Shown piece by piece: positions 53,527-63,685 of a DNA stretch of 64,000 bases. The stretch is from NCBI RefSeq assembly GCF_000025305.1, contig NC_013740.1:1674001-1738000 (forward strand), given 5' to 3'. Made by a program: the position numbers and the translations under genes. The stretch comes from Acidaminococcus fermentans DSM 20731. GTDB lineage: Bacteria; Bacillota; Negativicutes; Acidaminococcales; Acidaminococcaceae. Numbering within the stretch: position 1 is the first letter of the stretch; every line of letters begins with the position of its first letter. Below the pieces are notes generated by a model that saw only the letters and a program-made list of their open reading frames with translations, made no database searches and had not been told where the DNA came from.

Positions 53527-54423
53527 ATGGATCTGTTCCTGAACATGGTCCGGGGTTTCTGCATGGCCCTGGCCGACAGCGTCCCCGGGGTATCCGGCGG
53601 CACCATTGCCTTTGTGCTGGGCTTTTACGACGAATTCATCGGTTCCCTGTATGTGCTCACCCACGGCAACCGGGAACTGAAACGGGAGGGCATCCGTTTC
53701 CTGGCCAAGCTGGGCATGGGCTGGGTCATCGGCATGGGTTCTTCGGTGCTGGTGATCTCCAGTCTTTTCACCAGCCGGATCTATGAACTGAGTTCCCTGT
53801 TCCTGGGCTTTTCCATTTTTTCCCTTCCTCTGATTATCCGGGAAGAGAAGGAATGCCTCCGCCGTGTGAGCCGGCTCCTGTTCCTGGTACTGGGGATCGT
53901 GCTGGTGCTGGTGATCGCGGCGGTGAACCCCACCGGCGGCCAGGGGACCAATGTGGAAATCGCCCACCTGACCCCTCTCCTGGGAGGATACATCTTCGTC
54001 TGTGCCATGATCGCTATCTGCGCCATGGTGCTGCCGGGGATCTCCGGTTCCACCATGCTGCTGATCTTCGGGCTGTATGTACCCATCATCAGCGCCATCA
54101 AGGAATTCCTCCATATGAACCTGTCCTATTTCCCGGTGCTGTGCGTTTTCGGCTTCGGGGTGCTCACCGGGATTGTGGGGATCATCAAGCTGGTGAAAAA
54201 TGCCCTGGACAACCACCGGGCAGCCATGGTGTACTTCATCCTGGGGCTGATGATCGGTTCCCTGTATGCCATTGCCCAAGGTCCCACCACCCTGAAAGTG
54301 CCCCAGCCGGCTCTCACCTGGGAAACCTTCCATATTTTCTGGTTCCTCATGGGCGGAGTGTTCCTGGCCGGCCTCAACGGGCTGAAGGCCTTTACAGAAA
54401 AGAAGATGCATCCGGACAAGTGA
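53527..54423 (+). CDS. DUF368 membrane protein (PopT-type polyprenyl-phosphate transporter)
   Basis: A 298-residue polytopic membrane protein with about eight helices. The two family repeats are seen: ADSVPGVSGGTIAFVLGFYDEF (about 16-37) and MVLPGISGSTMLLIFGLY (about 167-184). DUF368 (PopT) proteins have recently been shown to recycle undecaprenyl phosphate across the membrane for envelope synthesis. The ATG at 53527 is 8 nt from AAAGGA; the ATG at 53518 overlaps that site. Confidence 0.9.
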   Translation: MDLFLNMVRGFCMALADSVPGVSGGTIAFVLGFYDEFIGSLYVLTHGNRELKREGIRFLAKLGMGWVIGMGSSVLVISSLFTSRIYELSSLFLGFSIFSLPLIIREEKECLRRVSRLLFLVLGIVLVLVIAAVNPTGGQGTNVEIAHLTPLLGGYIFVCAMIAICAMVLPGISGSTMLLIFGLYVPIISAIKEFLHMNLSYFPVLCVFGFGVLTGIVGIIKLVKNALDNHRAAMVYFILGLMIGSLYAIAQGPTTLKVPQPALTWETFHIFWFLMGGVFLAGLNGLKAFTEKKMHPDK

Positions 54424-54452: not shown

Positions 54453-54516
54453 GTCATCTGTCAATGGCCGAAGGAAATCAATTTTGTAAAAATTGATTTC
54501 CTTCGGCCATTGACAG
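54453..54516. repeat. Heptad element inside a 28-bp-arm perfect palindrome
   Basis: GTCATCT and GTCAATG units, GCCGAAGGAA, then the sequence folds back on itself: 54458-54485 is the exact reverse complement of 54489-54516 with only GTA between. The reverse arm repeats the heptad end as CATTGAC. Confidence 0.9.
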
Positions 54517-57591: not shown

Positions 57592-57627
57592 AAAAAACGG
57601 GATGCCGCTGGGCATCCCGTTTTTTTT
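57590..57627. terminator. Bidirectional terminator, feo operon / flavodoxin operon
   Basis: AAAAAAACGGGATGCC and GGCATCCCGTTTTTTT arms around GCT. Confidence 0.93.
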
Positions 57628-58258
57628 ATTTCACCCCCAGACTCTTCACCCAGTCCTTCACCTGGCTGTCCTGGAGGGTGCCGGTGAAGCAACGACCCTG
57701 GAGCCAGCTGCCTTTGCTGCCGGCCATTTCCTTCAGCTGGTCGGCGCTGCTGCCCATGCCGGAGCTGTAAGCGGTGGCAAAGGGAATCACCGTCTTGCCG
57801 GTGAAGTCATTGCTCTTCACGAAGGTATCCATGGGCCAGGCGGCAATGCCCCACCAGATGGGATACCCGACGAATACGGTGTCATAGTCCTGCCAGTTGG
57901 CGGGTTTGGCGTTCTTCAGAGCCACGTTCCGCAGGCTGGGGTCATCATGTTCCTGGTAGACCCGGGAACTTTTGTTGTTGTAATCCAAGTCTGCGGTCGT
58001 ATAGGGATTTTCCAGATCCAGCAGGTACAGATCCCCGCCGGTCTCCCCGGCAATGGCCTTGGCCACCTGTTCCGTCCGGTGAGTATTAGTATAATAGACC
58101 ACCAGTACCTTTTTGGCCTTGGCAGGCGCTTTTTCCGCAGCCGCCGTACCCGCTGCCTTGCCCCCGCCATTCTGGGCAGCCTGCTGTCCGCCGCAGGCCG
58201 TAACCGCCAGCAGAGACAGAGCCATGCAGACGATGGAAATCGCTTTTTTCCATCTCAT
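57626..58258 (-). CDS. Flavodoxin-type lipoprotein
   Basis: A 210-residue flavodoxin domain with a lipoprotein signal: lipobox AVTAC puts the Cys at residue 22, followed by a flexible Gly/Gln/Ala linker (to about 50). The FMN phosphate loop is in VVYYTNTHRTEQVA (about 53-66), with WQDYDTVFVGYPIWWGIAAWP (about 118-138) as the second FMN contact. An exported flavodoxin is typical of this family in gut Firmicutes. The start overlaps the stop of the small Cys-rich gene by 4 nt (ATGA). Confidence 0.88.
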   Translation of the reverse strand: MRWKKAISIVCMALSLLAVTACGGQQAAQNGGGKAAGTAAAEKAPAKAKKVLVVYYTNTHRTEQVAKAIAGETGGDLYLLDLENPYTTADLDYNNKSSRVYQEHDDPSLRNVALKNAKPANWQDYDTVFVGYPIWWGIAAWPMDTFVKSNDFTGKTVIPFATAYSSGMGSSADQLKEMAGSKGSWLQGRCFTGTLQDSQVKDWVKSLGVK

Positions 58259-58524
58259 GTTGTTTTCCTCCTTGTTCCTCTATGATTTTTCCTGCTGTTT
58301 TTCTCCAGATGGTACAGGAGATAATCCACATTGGTGAGTTTTTCCTGCTCCCGGTGGAGCTTTTTCAGGATTTCCTTCCGGTACTGACGGAGACACCGGC
58401 ACTGGCACCGATCATTCTTTTCCTGGAGGATTTTCCGGATGGTCTCTTCCGAACAGCCGGCCGCCTGGAGCACTTCCTGGCTCAGAGTCGTCTTTTTGAA
58501 ACTCTCCGCCTCCTTCTCATTCAT
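58255..58524 (-). CDS. Small Cys-containing protein, copy 1 of a recent duplication
   Basis: An 89-residue protein I cannot assign to a named family. It has a predicted helix-turn-helix-like N half (LSQEVLQAAGCSEETIRKIL), the Cys motif CQCRCLRQYRKE (about 46-57), and an amphipathic helix ending NVDYLLYHLEK. It shares about 85-90 percent identity in its core with the gene at 62029-62262. Its C-terminal 13 residues are specific. The ATG at 58524 overlaps the end of the CMD gene by 8 nt, and its stop overlaps the flavodoxin start. Confidence 0.8.
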   Translation of the reverse strand: MNEKEAESFKKTTLSQEVLQAAGCSEETIRKILQEKNDRCQCRCLRQYRKEILKKLHREQEKLTNVDYLLYHLEKNSRKNHRGTRRKTT

Positions 58525-58959
58525 TTCCATATACTTCTTTGGCATACCGGAAGGCTGCCCAGGCTTTGGGCCAGCCGGCGTAGAACCCCAGCTGGGTAAT
58601 GGCCTGGACCATTTCCTCCCGGGTTACTCCGTTCTTTTTAGCGGTGGCCATGTGGTACTGGAGGGAACTGTCTGTCAGTCCCTGGGCAATGAGCGCCGTC
58701 ACTGTCACCAGGCTCCGGTCGTGGAGGCTCAGCTTGTCGTTGGCGCTCCACACCTCTCCAAAAAGGATGTCATCGTTGTACCGGGCAAAATCCGGGGCAA
58801 AATTCCCCAGCTGATCCCGTCCTGCGGTTTGCACGATTTTGACCGTTTTTTTGTTTCATTTTCCATGGCTGCTGCCTCCCCAAAATGTATGCCCACGCAA
58901 GTCGTCATGACCAGGGCCAGTGCGAGTCCAGCAAATTGTTTCATGCGTTCGTCCATCAT
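58517..58959 (-). pseudogene. Exported CMD-family (carboxymuconolactone decarboxylase-like) protein, split by a -1 frameshift
   Basis: The N-terminal frame (from ATG 58957-58959, after AAGGAGG) encodes a signal peptide (MKQFAGLALALVMTTCVGIHFGEAAA in two runs: MKQFAGLALALVM and TTCVGIHFGEAAA) and ENETKK. The CMD domain (TAGRDQLGNFAPDF..., LSLHDRSLVTVTALIAQGL, VTREEMVQAITQLGFYAGWP) continues in the -1 frame. The join is a run of seven A at 58849-58855 read as A-AAA-AAA, a slippery pattern. Either a disabling frameshift, programmed slippage, or a sequencing error. Without the shift the domain could only start at a GTG (58834) without signal peptide. First gene of the flavodoxin operon. Confidence 0.75.
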
Positions 58960-59017
58960 GATTCCTCCTTCGGGTTATCTCCTGGATGTATCATAGCAAA
59001 TCCGCTCTTTCATATTA

Positions 59018-59026
59018 AATGCTTAT
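59018..59026. promoter_or_regulatory. ATAAGCATT motif upstream of the CMD-flavodoxin operon
   Basis: The minus-strand 9-mer ATAAGCATT, about 60 nt upstream of the start, is shared with the cupin/LysR intergenic region at 62736-62744. A TATGAT -10 lies between it and the gene (58989-58994). Confidence 0.45.
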
Positions 59027-59068
59027 CGTTCATCCATGGCAATAAGTAAAATGTATGAAAAAGGAAGC

Positions 59069-60823
59069 TTACAAAAGTGCCAGAATATCTTCAGCCGCCA
59101 GCTGGGGCGTCAGATGGTTCTCTTCCGCCAGCCTGGCGTAGTCATAGCGGTCATAGAAGGCCTTGGGGATGCCGAAATTCAATATGCGCATATCCGTTTT
59201 GCCATAATAGCTGGCGATCTTTTCTCCGAAGCCACCGGCCAGACAGCCATCTTCCATGGTTGCAACGACAGTATGATCTTTCCGCAGCTCTTCCAGGAGC
59301 TCTGTATCGAGGCCGGTGAGATAGCGGGGATTGATGACCGTGGCGTCGATACCGCGAGACTGCAGATCCTTTGCCGTCTGTTCTGCCAGGCCGTAGAAAT
59401 TGCCGGCACCCAGGAGAGCCACCTGGGAACCTTTATGGGTCACGGCAAAACGGTTCAGCTCCCTGTAATCCTTTTCGGCTTTCACTGGATAGAGGGAACC
59501 ATTTTCATAGACCGGTACAGGCACCCGGATAGCCACAGGATGGGTTTCCTGTGCGATGGCCCAGCCCAGCATTGCCTTATATTCTTCCAGGGTTGCAGGC
59601 GCCAGATACACCAGGTTCGGGATGTTGCTCAGCAGCGGGATATCATAGAAGCACAGATGGGTTACATCATTCATGCTGTACATGGATGCCCCGAATACCA
59701 GGAACGTGGCCGGGTTGCGATTTACACACACATCCTGGAACAACTGGTCGTACGTGCGCTGGAAGAATGTGGCATAACTGGCGAAGACGGGATGCATGCC
59801 GCCTTTGGCAAGCCCAGAAGCCATGGAGACAGCCTGTTCTTCGGCAATGCCCACATCGATGTACTGGCTGCCTGCTTCTTTCCGGCGTTCCGGCGTAAAG
59901 CCCATGACCATGGGTACAGCAGCCGTCATAGCCACCAGTTTCGGGTCCTTTTTCATCTGCTGCAGCAGGAAAGCAGCAGTGGCTTCACCGTACCTGTCCG
60001 TGTAGGGTTCCCTGACCTCGCCCGTTGCCAGGTCGAAGGGCATATGCCAGTGCCAGTCTTCTTTGTTCTTTTCTGCCGGGGCATAGCCCTTGCCCTTCTG
60101 GGTGACAATGTGCACCACCACAGGATGGTCAATATCCCTGACTTCCTCAAACGCACGGATCAGGGCTTCCACATCATTGCCGTCGGCCACGAAACGGTAG
60201 TCCAGCCCGAAGGCACGGAACAGATTGTCCGCTGCCTGCCCGTTGGTTTCCCGGAGTTTCTTGATGCCCTTGTACATGCCGCCGTGATTTTCTGCGATGG
60301 ACATGTCATTGTCATTGAAGACCACGATGAAATTCGTGCCCAATTCCCCCACGGTATCCAGCCCTCCAAAGGCCATGCCGCCGGAAAGGGAACCGTCGCC
60401 GATGACGGCAATGATGTTCTCTTTGCCGCCCTGCAGGTCACGGGCCTTGGCCAGACCGCTGGCCAGGGAAATGGAGGTGGACGTATGGCCCACGTTGAAG
60501 AAGTCGTGTTCACTTTCGTCCGGATTCGTATAGCCGGACACATCATTGTAATGGGCCGGGTCCGTATAAGCCTGCATGCGTCCGGTCAGCATCTTGTGGG
60601 GATAGGACTGGTGGGACACGTCATAAACGATTTTATCCTTCGGCGAATCGAATACGGTATGCAAAGCAACTGTCGCTTCCACAATGCCCAGGTCCGGGCC
60701 CACGTGGCCCATATGGACACTGGCCCGCTCCAGCATCGCCTTCCGCATTTCGTCGATCAGTTCCTGCCGTTCCTGGGGATTCAATTTTTTCAAGTCTTCC
60801 GGTCCCTTGATTTTTTCTAACAT
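59069..60823 (-). CDS. 1-deoxy-D-xylulose-5-phosphate synthase-like protein, short form
   Basis: A 584-residue thiamine-diphosphate enzyme. Transketolase-type domains in order: TPP domain with YDVSHQSYPHKMLTGR (about 68-83) and GDGSLSGGMAFGGLD (about 142-156), pyrimidine-binding domain with DVGIAEEQAVSMASGLAKGG (about 320-339) and the C-terminal transketolase domain (about 450-580). It is 30-40 residues shorter than usual Dxs and has VSHQSYPH for VGHQTYPH. It probably makes DXP for isoprenoids, thiamine or pyridoxal, but may be a divergent second Dxs. The base composition looks less CCGG-rich than its neighbours, suggesting possible transfer. ATG at 60821-60823 with AGGAG upstream. Confidence 0.82.
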   Translation of the reverse strand: MLEKIKGPEDLKKLNPQERQELIDEMRKAMLERASVHMGHVGPDLGIVEATVALHTVFDSPKDKIVYDVSHQSYPHKMLTGRMQAYTDPAHYNDVSGYTNPDESEHDFFNVGHTSTSISLASGLAKARDLQGGKENIIAVIGDGSLSGGMAFGGLDTVGELGTNFIVVFNDNDMSIAENHGGMYKGIKKLRETNGQAADNLFRAFGLDYRFVADGNDVEALIRAFEEVRDIDHPVVVHIVTQKGKGYAPAEKNKEDWHWHMPFDLATGEVREPYTDRYGEATAAFLLQQMKKDPKLVAMTAAVPMVMGFTPERRKEAGSQYIDVGIAEEQAVSMASGLAKGGMHPVFASYATFFQRTYDQLFQDVCVNRNPATFLVFGASMYSMNDVTHLCFYDIPLLSNIPNLVYLAPATLEEYKAMLGWAIAQETHPVAIRVPVPVYENGSLYPVKAEKDYRELNRFAVTHKGSQVALLGAGNFYGLAEQTAKDLQSRGIDATVINPRYLTGLDTELLEELRKDHTVVATMEDGCLAGGFGEKIASYYGKTDMRILNFGIPKAFYDRYDYARLAEENHLTPQLAAEDILALL

Positions 60824-60988
60824 CAGAATTCTCCTCTCATTTTTCTTTTGCATCGTCGTAATTGTGTACCTTCGTGCCGCCAGCGTATCATTTTTCCTTG
60901 ATGGTCACGTTGCCTGGCTGTAGCTGTAAAATCTGTTTTTTTCTCTCATGTTTTCTCGTTGTACAGGGACGTAACCCGTGGATGCTTT

Positions 60989-61993
60989 TCATCCCAGCCG
61001 CCCAGCCATAGACCTATTGATGGTCTGAGCCATGATTTGTTTCATGTTCCAGTCTCCGTGGATCCCGTCCAGGGAAAGTTCCGTGGGCAGGTCCTCCCCG
61101 GTTCCAAAGGGGGCCGCCACATCGATGTGGTCCCGGCTGCGGATATAGGCATTGACCTGGGCAAAAGACTGACGCCAGTTGTCCGCCGTGAGTTCGTCAA
61201 AGGCCTTCTGGATGTTGGCCGGATTGAGGGGTGGCAGGGTAAGATAGATGGGATGGATGCCCAGTGCTTCCGCCTTTTGCCCTATTTCTTCCAGATCCCG
61301 GATCACCTCTTCCGCCGACACCCCGGCACGGAGGCTGTTGGTGCCACCCATGATCAGCAGGTATTTCAGATGGAAGGGGCGCACATCCCGGTCGAACCGT
61401 TCCACCATCATGGCGCTGGTATCTCCGCTTTCCGACTGAGTGGCTCCCGGATTCCCGGTATAGGCATAGACAGGATACAGCAACAGTGAACCGTTGGTAT
61501 CCTGCATCCGGCTTCGGGGGACCGGTGCATTCCGTTCCACTTTCTGCAGACTGCTCTGAACTGCTACAGCCTGGGAATAATTCCCAAGGGGTCGCCCATC
61601 CAGGTCAAAAGCCCGCACCCGGTAATAGAGCACACCGGTAGTCTGTTTCTTCCGGAGTTTCTCCATGGGCAGCAGGGCCTGGGCAGAATAAATCCGACTG
61701 TTCCGGTACAGAGCCCCGGCGGCTTCCCGGGCGGAATCCAGATCGAGAGGAATCCCATCCAACACTTCCAGTTCATAGCGGACCGCATCCAACTGTTCCG
61801 GCCAAGTGAGCAGTCCCAGGTCCGCCCGGTCCACTTCCAATGCTGCCTGCCGGTTCTGAGCCGCCACAGGGGAAAAGCCGACCACCCGACGCACCGTACA
61901 GGAGCTGGCCAAAATCACCGGGATAGCCGCCAGAGCCAGAAAGCTCATGCCCAGTGCCTTCTTTTCCAGACTGGTCACTATGTTTTTTGCCAT
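60989..61993 (-). CDS. SGNH/GDSL-like hydrolase, probably missing block I
   Basis: A 334-residue protein with an N-terminal membrane segment or signal (residues about 14-32), a fibronectin-type-III-like part (about 55-145, ending YYRVRAFDLDGRPLGNY) and an SGNH hydrolase part. Block II-like SGDTSAMMVERFDRDV (about 190-205), block III MGGTNSL (about 215-221) and block V DGIHGDWNMKQ (about 312-322) are present. The expected block I with the nucleophilic Ser (GDS) is not seen; the sequence goes from a beta strand YPVYAYTGNPGATQ straight to block II. Third gene of the cupin operon. Confidence 0.7.
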   Translation of the reverse strand: MAKNIVTSLEKKALGMSFLALAAIPVILASSCTVRRVVGFSPVAAQNRQAALEVDRADLGLLTWPEQLDAVRYELEVLDGIPLDLDSAREAAGALYRNSRIYSAQALLPMEKLRKKQTTGVLYYRVRAFDLDGRPLGNYSQAVAVQSSLQKVERNAPVPRSRMQDTNGSLLLYPVYAYTGNPGATQSESGDTSAMMVERFDRDVRPFHLKYLLIMGGTNSLRAGVSAEEVIRDLEEIGQKAEALGIHPIYLTLPPLNPANIQKAFDELTADNWRQSFAQVNAYIRSRDHIDVAAPFGTGEDLPTELSLDGIHGDWNMKQIMAQTINRSMAGRLG

Positions 61994-62028
61994 GATGCTT
62001 CCTTCTTTCTTTGTTCATCAAGGTCCTT

Positions 62029-62262
62029 TTATTGTCTTTTCTCCAGATGGTACAGGAGATAATCCACATTGGTGAGTTTTTCCTGCTCCCGGTAGAAATT
62101 GGCCAGAAGTTCCTTCCGGTACTGGCGGAGGCAGCGGCACTGGCACCGGTCACTTTTTTCCTGGAGGATCTTCCGGATGGTCTCTTCCGGACAGCCGGCC
62201 GCCTGGAGCACTTCCTGGCTCAGGGTAGTCTTTTTGAGACTTTCCGTCCCCTTCTCCTTCAT
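62029..62262 (-). CDS. Small Cys-containing protein, copy 2 of a recent duplication
   Basis: A 77-residue paralogue of the gene at 58255-58524. It contains LSQEVLQAAGCPEETIRKIL, CQCRCLRQYRKELL and NVDYLLYHLEKRQ. The nucleotide sequences also stay close over about 230 bases, so the duplication or a gene conversion is recent. The ATG at 62260-62262 overlaps the cupin stop (ATGA). Unknown function; association with a cupin here and a flavodoxin/CMD there suggests a shared accessory role. Confidence 0.8.
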   Translation of the reverse strand: MKEKGTESLKKTTLSQEVLQAAGCPEETIRKILQEKSDRCQCRCLRQYRKELLANFYREQEKLTNVDYLLYHLEKRQ

Positions 62263-62678
62263 TTCAGCCTGCCATATTCTGCCGGATCCACCGCTTCGCA
62301 CCATTCATTGCTGGTGCCTTCTCCAGGCACTTCCAGAGCCAGATGCTGGAAGGCGGAATCCGGAGCCGCCCCGTGCCAGTGCTTCACTTCCGGAGGAATG
62401 TTCACCACATCCCCGGCTTTCAGTTCCTGGGCCGGCTTTCCCCATTCCTGGTAATAGCCCCGTCCGGCGGTGACGATGAGGATCTGTCCGCCTCCGTTGG
62501 CTGCATGGTGGATGTGCCAATGATTCCGGCAGCCCGGTTCAAAGGTCACCACCGCTGTGACCACCTGCTGGAGGGTCAGCATGTTCAAATAGCTCTTTCC
62601 ATCAAAATATTGGGCATACCCTGTATTTTCTTTTCCCAGGGCAAAGGGGCTCGTTTTTTCCAGTTCCTGCAGATCCAT
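62259..62678 (-). CDS. Cupin domain protein
   Basis: A 139-residue single cupin. Metal ligands are visible in HWHIHHAANGGGQ (His-x-His, about 51-63) and the second motif HWHGAAPDSAFQHLAL (about 104-119). Similar cupins sit beside CMD-family proteins and flavodoxins in anaerobes, and some are fused to CMD domains. The first gene of its operon, divergent from the LysR gene; AAAGGAG 7-8 nt before the ATG. Confidence 0.88.
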   Translation of the reverse strand: MDLQELEKTSPFALGKENTGYAQYFDGKSYLNMLTLQQVVTAVVTFEPGCRNHWHIHHAANGGGQILIVTAGRGYYQEWGKPAQELKAGDVVNIPPEVKHWHGAAPDSAFQHLALEVPGEGTSNEWCEAVDPAEYGRLK

Positions 62679-62745: not shown

Positions 62746-62788
62746 ACAAGTAGTTGAAAATACATTTTTCCTATTGCAGGAGGAAATC

Positions 62789-63685
62789 ATGGAAATCCGT
62801 ACCCTGAAATATTTTCTGGCGGTGGCCCGGGAGCAGAACATGACCGAAGCCGCCAATGTACTGTTCGTCACCCAGCCTACCCTGTCCCGGCAGATGGCAG
62901 ACCTGGAAAAGGAACTGGGAAAGAAGCTCTTTGTCCGGACCAATCGGAGTACCACCCTGACGGAGGAAGGAATGCACCTGCGCCAGCGGGCGGAAGAGAT
63001 CCTGGCCCTGGTGGACCAGACCAAAGAAGAGATCCGGGAAGACGACATGGACCTTTCCGGCTGCATACGGATCGGTGCCGGAGAAACCCGGGCCATGCAC
63101 TGGGTCACCGACACCTTCGCCGAACTCCATCAGGAGTATCCCCATCTGACTATCGAGCTGTTCACTAACAACGCAGACGGAGTCCAGGAGCGCCTGGAAC
63201 ACGGACTGCTGGATTTCGGACTGTTCATCGAACCCTTCAACCCGGAAAACTACAACTTCCTCCGTCTCCCGGAACCGGACCAGGTGGGCATCGTTACCAG
63301 CCTCCACAGCCCCTGGGCTCACCTGGAAAAAGTGACCCCCAAAGAGCTCCAGGCCATGCCCCTTCTCATTTCCTCCCGGACCACCCAGAAGACCTTTGAT
63401 CTTTCCCGCTGGTCCGGTGGCCAGGTAACCCTGGAAACTCTCTGTGTGGCAGGCCGCTTCGACCTGATTGGCAATGCTTCCCTGTTGGTCCGTACCGGTC
63501 AGGTAAATGCCCTGGGCCTGGACCATCTGCTGCAGATCGAAACCCAGGGCCTGAAGGTCATCCCTCTGGATCCTCCCCTGTCCGTCGGCAGCCTGGTGGC
63601 CTGGAAGAAGTTCCGGCTCCTGTCCCGTTCCAGCCAGGTGTTCCTGGACCAGTTAAAGCAAAAACTTTCTGATTTTTCCCATTGA
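62789..63685 (+). CDS. LysR family transcriptional regulator
   Basis: A 298-residue LTTR: winged helix at 1-60 (NMTEAANVLFVTQPTLSRQM), linker helix, and effector domain (about 90-295, GCIRIGAGETRAMHWV). ATG at 62789 with AGGAGG 5 nt upstream. By the usual divergent arrangement it should control the cupin operon; the shared 9-mer suggests that it also controls the CMD-flavodoxin operon. Effector unknown, possibly an oxidised or aromatic compound. Confidence 0.91.
   Translation: MEIRTLKYFLAVAREQNMTEAANVLFVTQPTLSRQMADLEKELGKKLFVRTNRSTTLTEEGMHLRQRAEEILALVDQTKEEIREDDMDLSGCIRIGAGETRAMHWVTDTFAELHQEYPHLTIELFTNNADGVQERLEHGLLDFGLFIEPFNPENYNFLRLPEPDQVGIVTSLHSPWAHLEKVTPKELQAMPLLISSRTTQKTFDLSRWSGGQVTLETLCVAGRFDLIGNASLLVRTGQVNALGLDHLLQIETQGLKVIPLDPPLSVGSLVAWKKFRLLSRSSQVFLDQLKQKLSDFSH

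Follow-up and report, generated by a model that had tools for sequence, protein, structure and literature searches.

The DNA analyzed here, a window of 64,000 nucleotides (positions 1674001-1738000 of the 2,329,769-bp genome of Acidaminococcus fermentans, genome label G000), contains two copies, A and B, of a small gene located among genes for redox enzymes. Comparison of sequence profiles identified the product of this gene as a stand-alone C-terminal module of the MerR family, consisting of the second helix pair and the long helix without the winged helix, and we refer to it as the headless protein. The gene is found with, and usually divergently beside, a LysR-type regulator of one clade. 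Homology and association were observed directly; from them we infer, with confidence somewhat short of even, that the headless protein may be a small, helical, MerR-derived accessory or feedback sensor, which would bind the adjacent LysR and sense stress at a redox operon, and that the copies in the window may have arisen by block duplication followed by losses.

Family searches with the headless protein also drew in full-length proteins of about 115-141 amino acids, which carry a winged helix ahead of the matching C-terminus. PF13411 was detected in all three full-length proteins scanned against Pfam (two of 14 MerR-like proteins and one of six canonical MerRs). In hhalign, the profile of 120 headless proteins, from which two headless frames longer than 130 amino acids were left out, matched that of the 14 full-length MerR-like proteins with a probability of 98.3%, an E-value of 1.6e-14 and a score of 85, and aligned to MerR columns 63-131 of 132; the 14 proteins had themselves been retrieved with the headless profile. 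Against the six canonical MerRs, of which those from loci L183, L198, and L221 were found by the winged helix alone, the values were 82%, 1e-5 and 37.7. Control comparisons scored 11.6 and 8.7 when reversed and 17.3 in the best of 30 column shuffles. The earlier note on this DNA was right to place the small gene in redox operons, and a regulator was one of the functions that it had considered. Neither copy (the proteins have 77-89 amino acids) gave a Pfam match to the MerR winged-helix domain (PF13411/PF00376), and the DNA-binding domain of the NmlR/AdhR clade was likewise not represented by any MerR Pfam match in either copy. Judged by the feature that defines MerR regulators, the DNA-binding domain, the headless protein falls outside that family. 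The MerR C-terminal helix pair and the long dimerization helix are present by sequence profile, and dimerization is predicted.

No Pfam or NCBIfam model matched copy A or copy B above its cut-off, and the matches of copy A to DUF4143 and UFL1_C in Pfam both fell below theirs. For one clostridial relative, Pfam gave nothing at an E-value of 0.01, and a scan of nine relatives against NCBIfam gave a single weak match (RecX, E 0.022) in one of them. Searches of solved structures found nothing below E 0.065 (annexins) with the sequence of copy A and nothing below E 0.05 with a 54-row profile, which placed the MerR chain 3gp4 at E 0.25. The predicted model of the headless protein has helices at residues 16-21, 26-34, and 38-84, the last of them 47 residues long, with a mean pLDDT of 81.6. 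Two short helices and one long helix are the expected shape of a MerR C-terminal half, and the MerR chains 4ua2, 3gp4, and 6xl5 were among the few fold matches, with weak scores. Database records of such proteins presumably often carry the name 6-O-methylguanine DNA methyltransferase. Two candidates for natural fusions, a frame of 255 amino acids in locus L141 and one of 307 amino acids in locus L192, were rejected and excluded from the profile; by eye, both run through the antisense strand of the neighboring LysR gene. A 130-amino acid frame in locus L127 (5809-6201) is possibly a gene fusion or a remnant; it opens with a few residues that, by eye, look like the N-terminus of a dehydrogenase and continues as a headless MerR-like protein.

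Among the genomes sampled, 42 of 200 from the class and 19 of 398 from the phylum gave matches, some of them being the full-length MerR form. Copy A had no match among plasmids and a clostridial relative had none among plasmids and phages. Neighborhoods were compared for 122 distinct headless genes, using open reading frames rather than a trained gene finder; neighbor counts include all frames, and for some loci the sequence stops short of 6 kb on a side of the headless gene. A LysR gene lay within 6 kb of 114 of the 122 genes, the nearest LysR being divergent in 101; in 85 the LysR is divergent and no more than 400 bp away. As a background, taken from the A. fermentans genome alone, zones reaching about 6 kb from the 36 LysR substrate-domain matches cover 17.4% of the sequence. 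At least one of nine types of redox or detoxification enzymes occurred within 6 kb of 117 headless genes, and all 122 had either a LysR or one of these enzymes at that distance. The enzyme counts, which stand without a background rate, were 51 for aldo/keto reductases (AKR), 50 for alpha/beta hydrolases, 43 for FMN reductases, 34 for Fe-alcohol dehydrogenases and 14 for carboxymuconolactone decarboxylases (CMD). One group of loci comprises the best 80 of 381 and was found with the pattern DCLDYL[IV]Y, so that Cys65 is present there by construction. The usual layout in the clostridial set was a LysR gene and, divergently from it, the headless gene first, followed by a gene for an Fe-alcohol dehydrogenase, aldo/keto reductase, alpha/beta hydrolase or FMN reductase. 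According to the earlier note, homologs in random contexts without flavodoxin, CMD or cupin partners would speak against its reading, and on this point the outcome is divided. A flavodoxin of the PF12682 type, a CMD or a cupin was present within 6 kb of 39 headless genes and all three were missing from the other 83, but the contexts are not random, and the constant partner is the LysR.

The LysR proteins beside headless genes are related to each other. All 90 LysRs longer than 230 amino acids and encoded within 600 bp of a headless gene fell in one clade of 125 (support 0.91), which was chosen by script as the clade with the most headless-linked and the fewest own-genome tips. The same clade held all eight LysRs of that length located beside full-length MerRs. 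Among 35 LysRs sampled from the A. fermentans genome, 34 were outside the clade and the remaining one was the LysR of the window, a member of the clade accompanying headless genes. In reverse searches starting from the LysR, the 11 fetched loci most similar to the window LysR, counting the window itself, included 10 with a headless gene no more than 1.5 kb away; for a clostridial LysR, counting its own locus, the figure was 10 of 13. Clusters of this LysR/redox kind also harbor the full-length relatives. Of 17 in the fetched regions, eight are located 67-241 bp downstream of a same-strand LysR gene and a ninth is 26 bp upstream of one; these nine tandem, same-strand pairs (L180, L181, L213, and L215-L220; 26-241 bp apart) lie at or near redox genes.

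A dyad, TTC-N7-GAA, which many clostridial promoters have in common, was detected in 48 of 79 LysR/headless promoters, compared with 3.75 expected; it is the best of 341 gapped patterns, and the promoters are partly related. The extended form reads TGtTATTC-N7-GAATAaCa, then TGaTAT, and the T-N11-A rule for LysR boxes fits it. Allowing at most two mismatches, the long dyad had two matches in 18 genomes, both adjoining a headless gene, and three additional matches at three mismatches also adjoin one.

The enzyme families suggest that the operons would serve in carbonyl, quinone or electrophile clean-up or in redox clean-up. The headless protein would be made from a promoter controlled by the adjacent LysR, would form a helical dimer, as its MerR homology predicts, and would act as an accessory or feedback sensor of that LysR, tuning an electrophile/redox-stress operon. 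The stress may be sensed through Cys24, which was present in 71 of 74 headless proteins of one set and in 30 of 46 of the set obtained by genome search. Cys24 was not detected in any of the 20 compared MerRs, all of which carry F, M or V at this position; four of the 24 winged-helix matches had been dropped from these counts, being judged other MerR types. We propose an accessory or feedback sensor because of the constancy of the LysR, the genomes with no detectable MerR_1 domain (see below) and the pattern of Cys24.

Several results weigh against this proposal. Fold comparison by itself was weak; the best MerR chain in Foldseek had an E-value of 5.9, VIA-align gave Z values (5.1, 4.0, and 3.9) that common helical arrangements also reach, and the weak matches of both programs include ribosomal and tRNA-processing chains. 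Cys24 is missing from 16 of 46 proteins in the less biased genome-search set. When both reverse searches are considered, of the 59 LysR loci fetched, all of them best matches, only 31 had a headless gene at a distance of 1.5 kb or less (29 of 57 genes, since two genes were in both searches), and a winged-helix MerR took its place in two of the 59. Relatives of these LysRs can therefore do without the headless gene; it is common with this LysR type and not obligatory. At three mismatches the long dyad had 15 matches in the 18 genomes, compared with five for a reversed control, and most were away from headless genes. The dyad was not found beside the headless gene in the window or in the congeners, and the clostridial dyad matrix, which was trained on the sites that it scores, gave no match above 8 bits as a candidate operator of the window LysR. 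A dyad scoring 26.5 bits was present at a LysR locus (L310, genome G581) with no headless gene within 1.5 kb. The absence of the dyad from the window and congeners and its presence at L310 indicate that it belongs to the LysR rather than to the headless gene. Lastly, the duplication history given below is read from gene order, and the headless gene is the sole part of the duplicated block that is still in two copies.

The two copies are located in the window among the following genes:
57626..58258, minus strand: flavodoxin (PF12682), downstream of copy A; by eye, the N-terminus resembles that of a lipoprotein
58255..58524, minus strand: copy A of the headless MerR-like gene, an open reading frame of 89 amino acids
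58517..58834, minus strand: catalytic part of a CMD (PF02627), upstream of copy A
59069..60853, minus strand: 1-deoxy-D-xylulose-5-phosphate-synthase (DXS)-like enzyme (NF008968), between both half-operons
60989..61993, minus strand: SGNH/GDSL-like protein (PF13472, 37.1 bits against a cut-off of 32.9), downstream of copy B
62029..62262, minus strand: copy B of the headless MerR-like gene, an open reading frame of 77 amino acids
62259..62678, minus strand: cupin (PF07883), upstream of copy B and divergent from the LysR gene
62774..63685, plus strand: LysR-type regulator (PF03466, PF00126), divergent from cupin and copy B

The gene order is thus cupin, copy B, SGNH, DXS-like gene, CMD, copy A, flavodoxin, with the CMD, flavodoxin, cupin and SGNH neighbors as the earlier note had described them. 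Its statement that stop-start overlaps join these genes held at three of four junctions (CMD/copy A, 8 nt; copy A/flavodoxin, 4 nt; cupin/copy B, 4 nt) and not at the fourth, where a 35-nt gap separates copy B from the SGNH gene.

The duplication itself is real. Both frames share a direct repeat of 229 nt (58299-58527 and 62037-62265) with 90% identity, which is far beyond chance (E 9.7e-84 in a search of the genome against itself). The repeat of about 230 nt had been called close to identical, which overstated the degree of identity, as 23 of 226 bases differ. Nucleotide identity was 89.8% between copies A and B, 91.6% between copy A and the single gene of the sister species G003, and 89.3% between copy B and that gene; the respective synonymous distances were 0.26, 0.30, and 0.35. 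The copies date back about as far as the separation from the congeners, because the distance between them is similar to their distances to the G003 gene, and gene conversion is not needed to explain it. Recent duplication and gene conversion are rejected, since the paralogs are no nearer each other than to the sister-species gene, and the distances give no support to the movement of a cassette that had also been suggested. Nor are the neighbors unrelated, as had been assumed; in the two sister species G003 and G004 all of them belong to one operon at the same place, divergent from a LysR gene, with the order cupin, CMD, small gene, second flavodoxin, SGNH, lipoprotein-like flavodoxin. From this gene order, the window is best read as a duplicated CMD-headless-flavodoxin-SGNH block in which complementary losses would have left cupin-B-SGNH on one side and CMD-A-flavodoxin on the other. 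With dN/dS values of 0.03-0.28, the headless gene evolves under purifying selection.

The same genome has a second redox cluster, paralogous to that of the window, at 620000-636000 (locus L162); it contains genes for a cupin, flavodoxins, SGNH, CMD, a headless protein and a LysR. Ectopic recombination or insertion involving this cluster, rather than tandem duplication, could have produced the two copies, although we consider this somewhat unlikely. The stretch 58869-59064 upstream of CMD matches the second cluster (83% over 58530-59064) and not the sister-species operon, so that this part is mosaic and some recombination took place. The evidence from the headless genes points the other way; copy A is 91.6% identical to the sister-species gene, whereas the third, more distant headless copy in the second cluster (at 627574) has 54% identity at the protein level. 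Block duplication with complementary losses is the history that we prefer for copies A and B.

With respect to function, it is unlikely that the headless protein is a subunit or adaptor of an operon enzyme, such as a reductase, hydrolase or flavodoxin, rather than part of a regulatory system. The location of the gene inside enzyme operons, the start-stop overlaps in the window and the enzymes of the nine types near 117 of 122 relatives are all consistent with such a role. However, no enzyme is constant, the commonest (AKR) being present near 51 of 122 genes vs. 114 for LysR, and the headless protein is homologous to part of a regulator. A regulator's partner is favored over an enzyme subunit because the enzymes vary and the LysR is nearly constant.

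It is more improbable still that the headless protein is a bacterial microprotein, that is, a MerR dimerization module which pairs with full-length MerRs and keeps them off DNA. Eukaryotic Id-like microproteins are dimerization modules without a DNA-binding part that pair with their parent family, and the headless protein shares with them both the dimerization module and the lack of a DNA-binding part. Besides the homology to the MerR dimerization half, such pairing would agree with the MerR-type winged-helix gene that 7 of 122 headless genes have at a distance of up to 6 kb, with the full-length relatives, whose clusters are of similar type and include LysRs of the same clade, and with the presence of at least one MerR_1 (PF13411) match in 32 of 35 genomes carrying a headless gene. 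In contrast to the Id-like case, three of the 35 genomes, G000, G004, and G544, each about 99% complete, gave no match to the parent family; 12 of 14 control genomes examined alongside G000 had a MerR_1 match. A same-family partner is thus common and not general, and a MerR decoy as the general role is weakened because the A. fermentans genome, which has three headless genes, and two other genomes contain no detectable MerR_1.

A cysteine-rich metal or redox carrier, as the earlier note had suggested from the CQCRC motif present in both copies and in two sister species, is very improbable on the conservation of the cysteines, since Cys40, Cys42, and Cys44 were present in only 3 of 46 relatives in the genome-search set, all from this genus, which argues against a conserved metal site, Cys42 was present in 1 of 74 proteins in the other set, no conserved metal-ligand cysteines were found in these sets, and the predicted model consists of helices only. 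The case serves as a warning that a small gene beside redox enzymes, even one with a cysteine cluster, need not encode a metal carrier.

The proposed accessory or feedback sensor of LysR can be compared with several known systems. One is the MerR family itself, with the NmlR/AdhR clade as the nearest in gene content; the C-terminal half is homologous, but the headless protein has no winged-helix DNA-binding domain, its regular neighbor is a LysR, and it often has Cys24 where the compared MerRs have other residues. AdhR of Bacillus subtilis is reported to upregulate adhA, yraC (a CMD protein) and yraA in response to methylglyoxal or formaldehyde, and its conserved Cys52 to be required for the response of adhA to formaldehyde (PMC4776306). 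That regulon, with an alcohol dehydrogenase and a CMD protein, is a precedent for the gene content of the headless operons (PMC4776306). BldC, TnrA, and GlnR are likewise pared-down members of the MerR fold, but they are described as keeping the winged helix and lacking the coiled coil, a reduction opposite to that of the headless protein (PMC5859096). The reverse truncation is already known; among the papers listed in searches of open-licence literature, judged by title and abstract opening, none dealt with a headless MerR beside a LysR. A precedent for the proposed control of a LysR by a second protein is GltC of B. subtilis, a LysR-type regulator whose activity is set by RocG, which is reported to bind GltC (PMC6794564). 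Binding of the headless protein to its LysR would be analogous, with the difference that RocG is an enzyme and the headless protein shows no enzyme homology in the libraries scanned.

If the headless protein sets the activity of the LysR, half of a transcription factor of one family would serve a regulator of another, which would provide a handle on the sensing of reactive carbonyls or quinones by anaerobic Firmicutes. A more specific version, possible but doubtful, is a two-protein switch in which a MerR that lost its DNA-binding domain has become a subunit for sensing or feedback, dedicated to one clade of LysRs, with the pairs of full-length MerR and LysR being ancestral. The sensor of such a switch would come from one family and the DNA contact from another.

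Other features of the window were also observed. A run of seven A residues at 58846-58852 (minus strand) in the CMD gene splits a signal-peptide-like frame (58729-58959) from the catalytic frame and may be a frameshift, a sequencing error or a slippage site. The catalytic frame differs from that of G003 by 24 synonymous and one non-synonymous changes; the gene is not simply decaying, because its catalytic frame is strongly constrained despite the out-of-frame signal-peptide-like part. The final 14 residues of copy A are unlike those of copy B and of the sister species. The SGNH protein has 334 amino acids compared with 455 in a sister species, an in-frame internal stretch with the GDS motif being gone; the deletion maps to 61435-61443. 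The cupin also resembles the (R)-mandelonitrile lyase model NF049940, with a score below the model cut-off, and the LysR gene has an in-frame ATG at 62789. A DXS-like gene was detected near the headless gene in 7 of 122 loci, among them the window (59069-60853), L122, L132, L135, L144, and L146. Farther away, at 54458-54516, a perfect 28-nt inverted repeat with a 3-nt loop is located downstream of a gene that ends at 54423.

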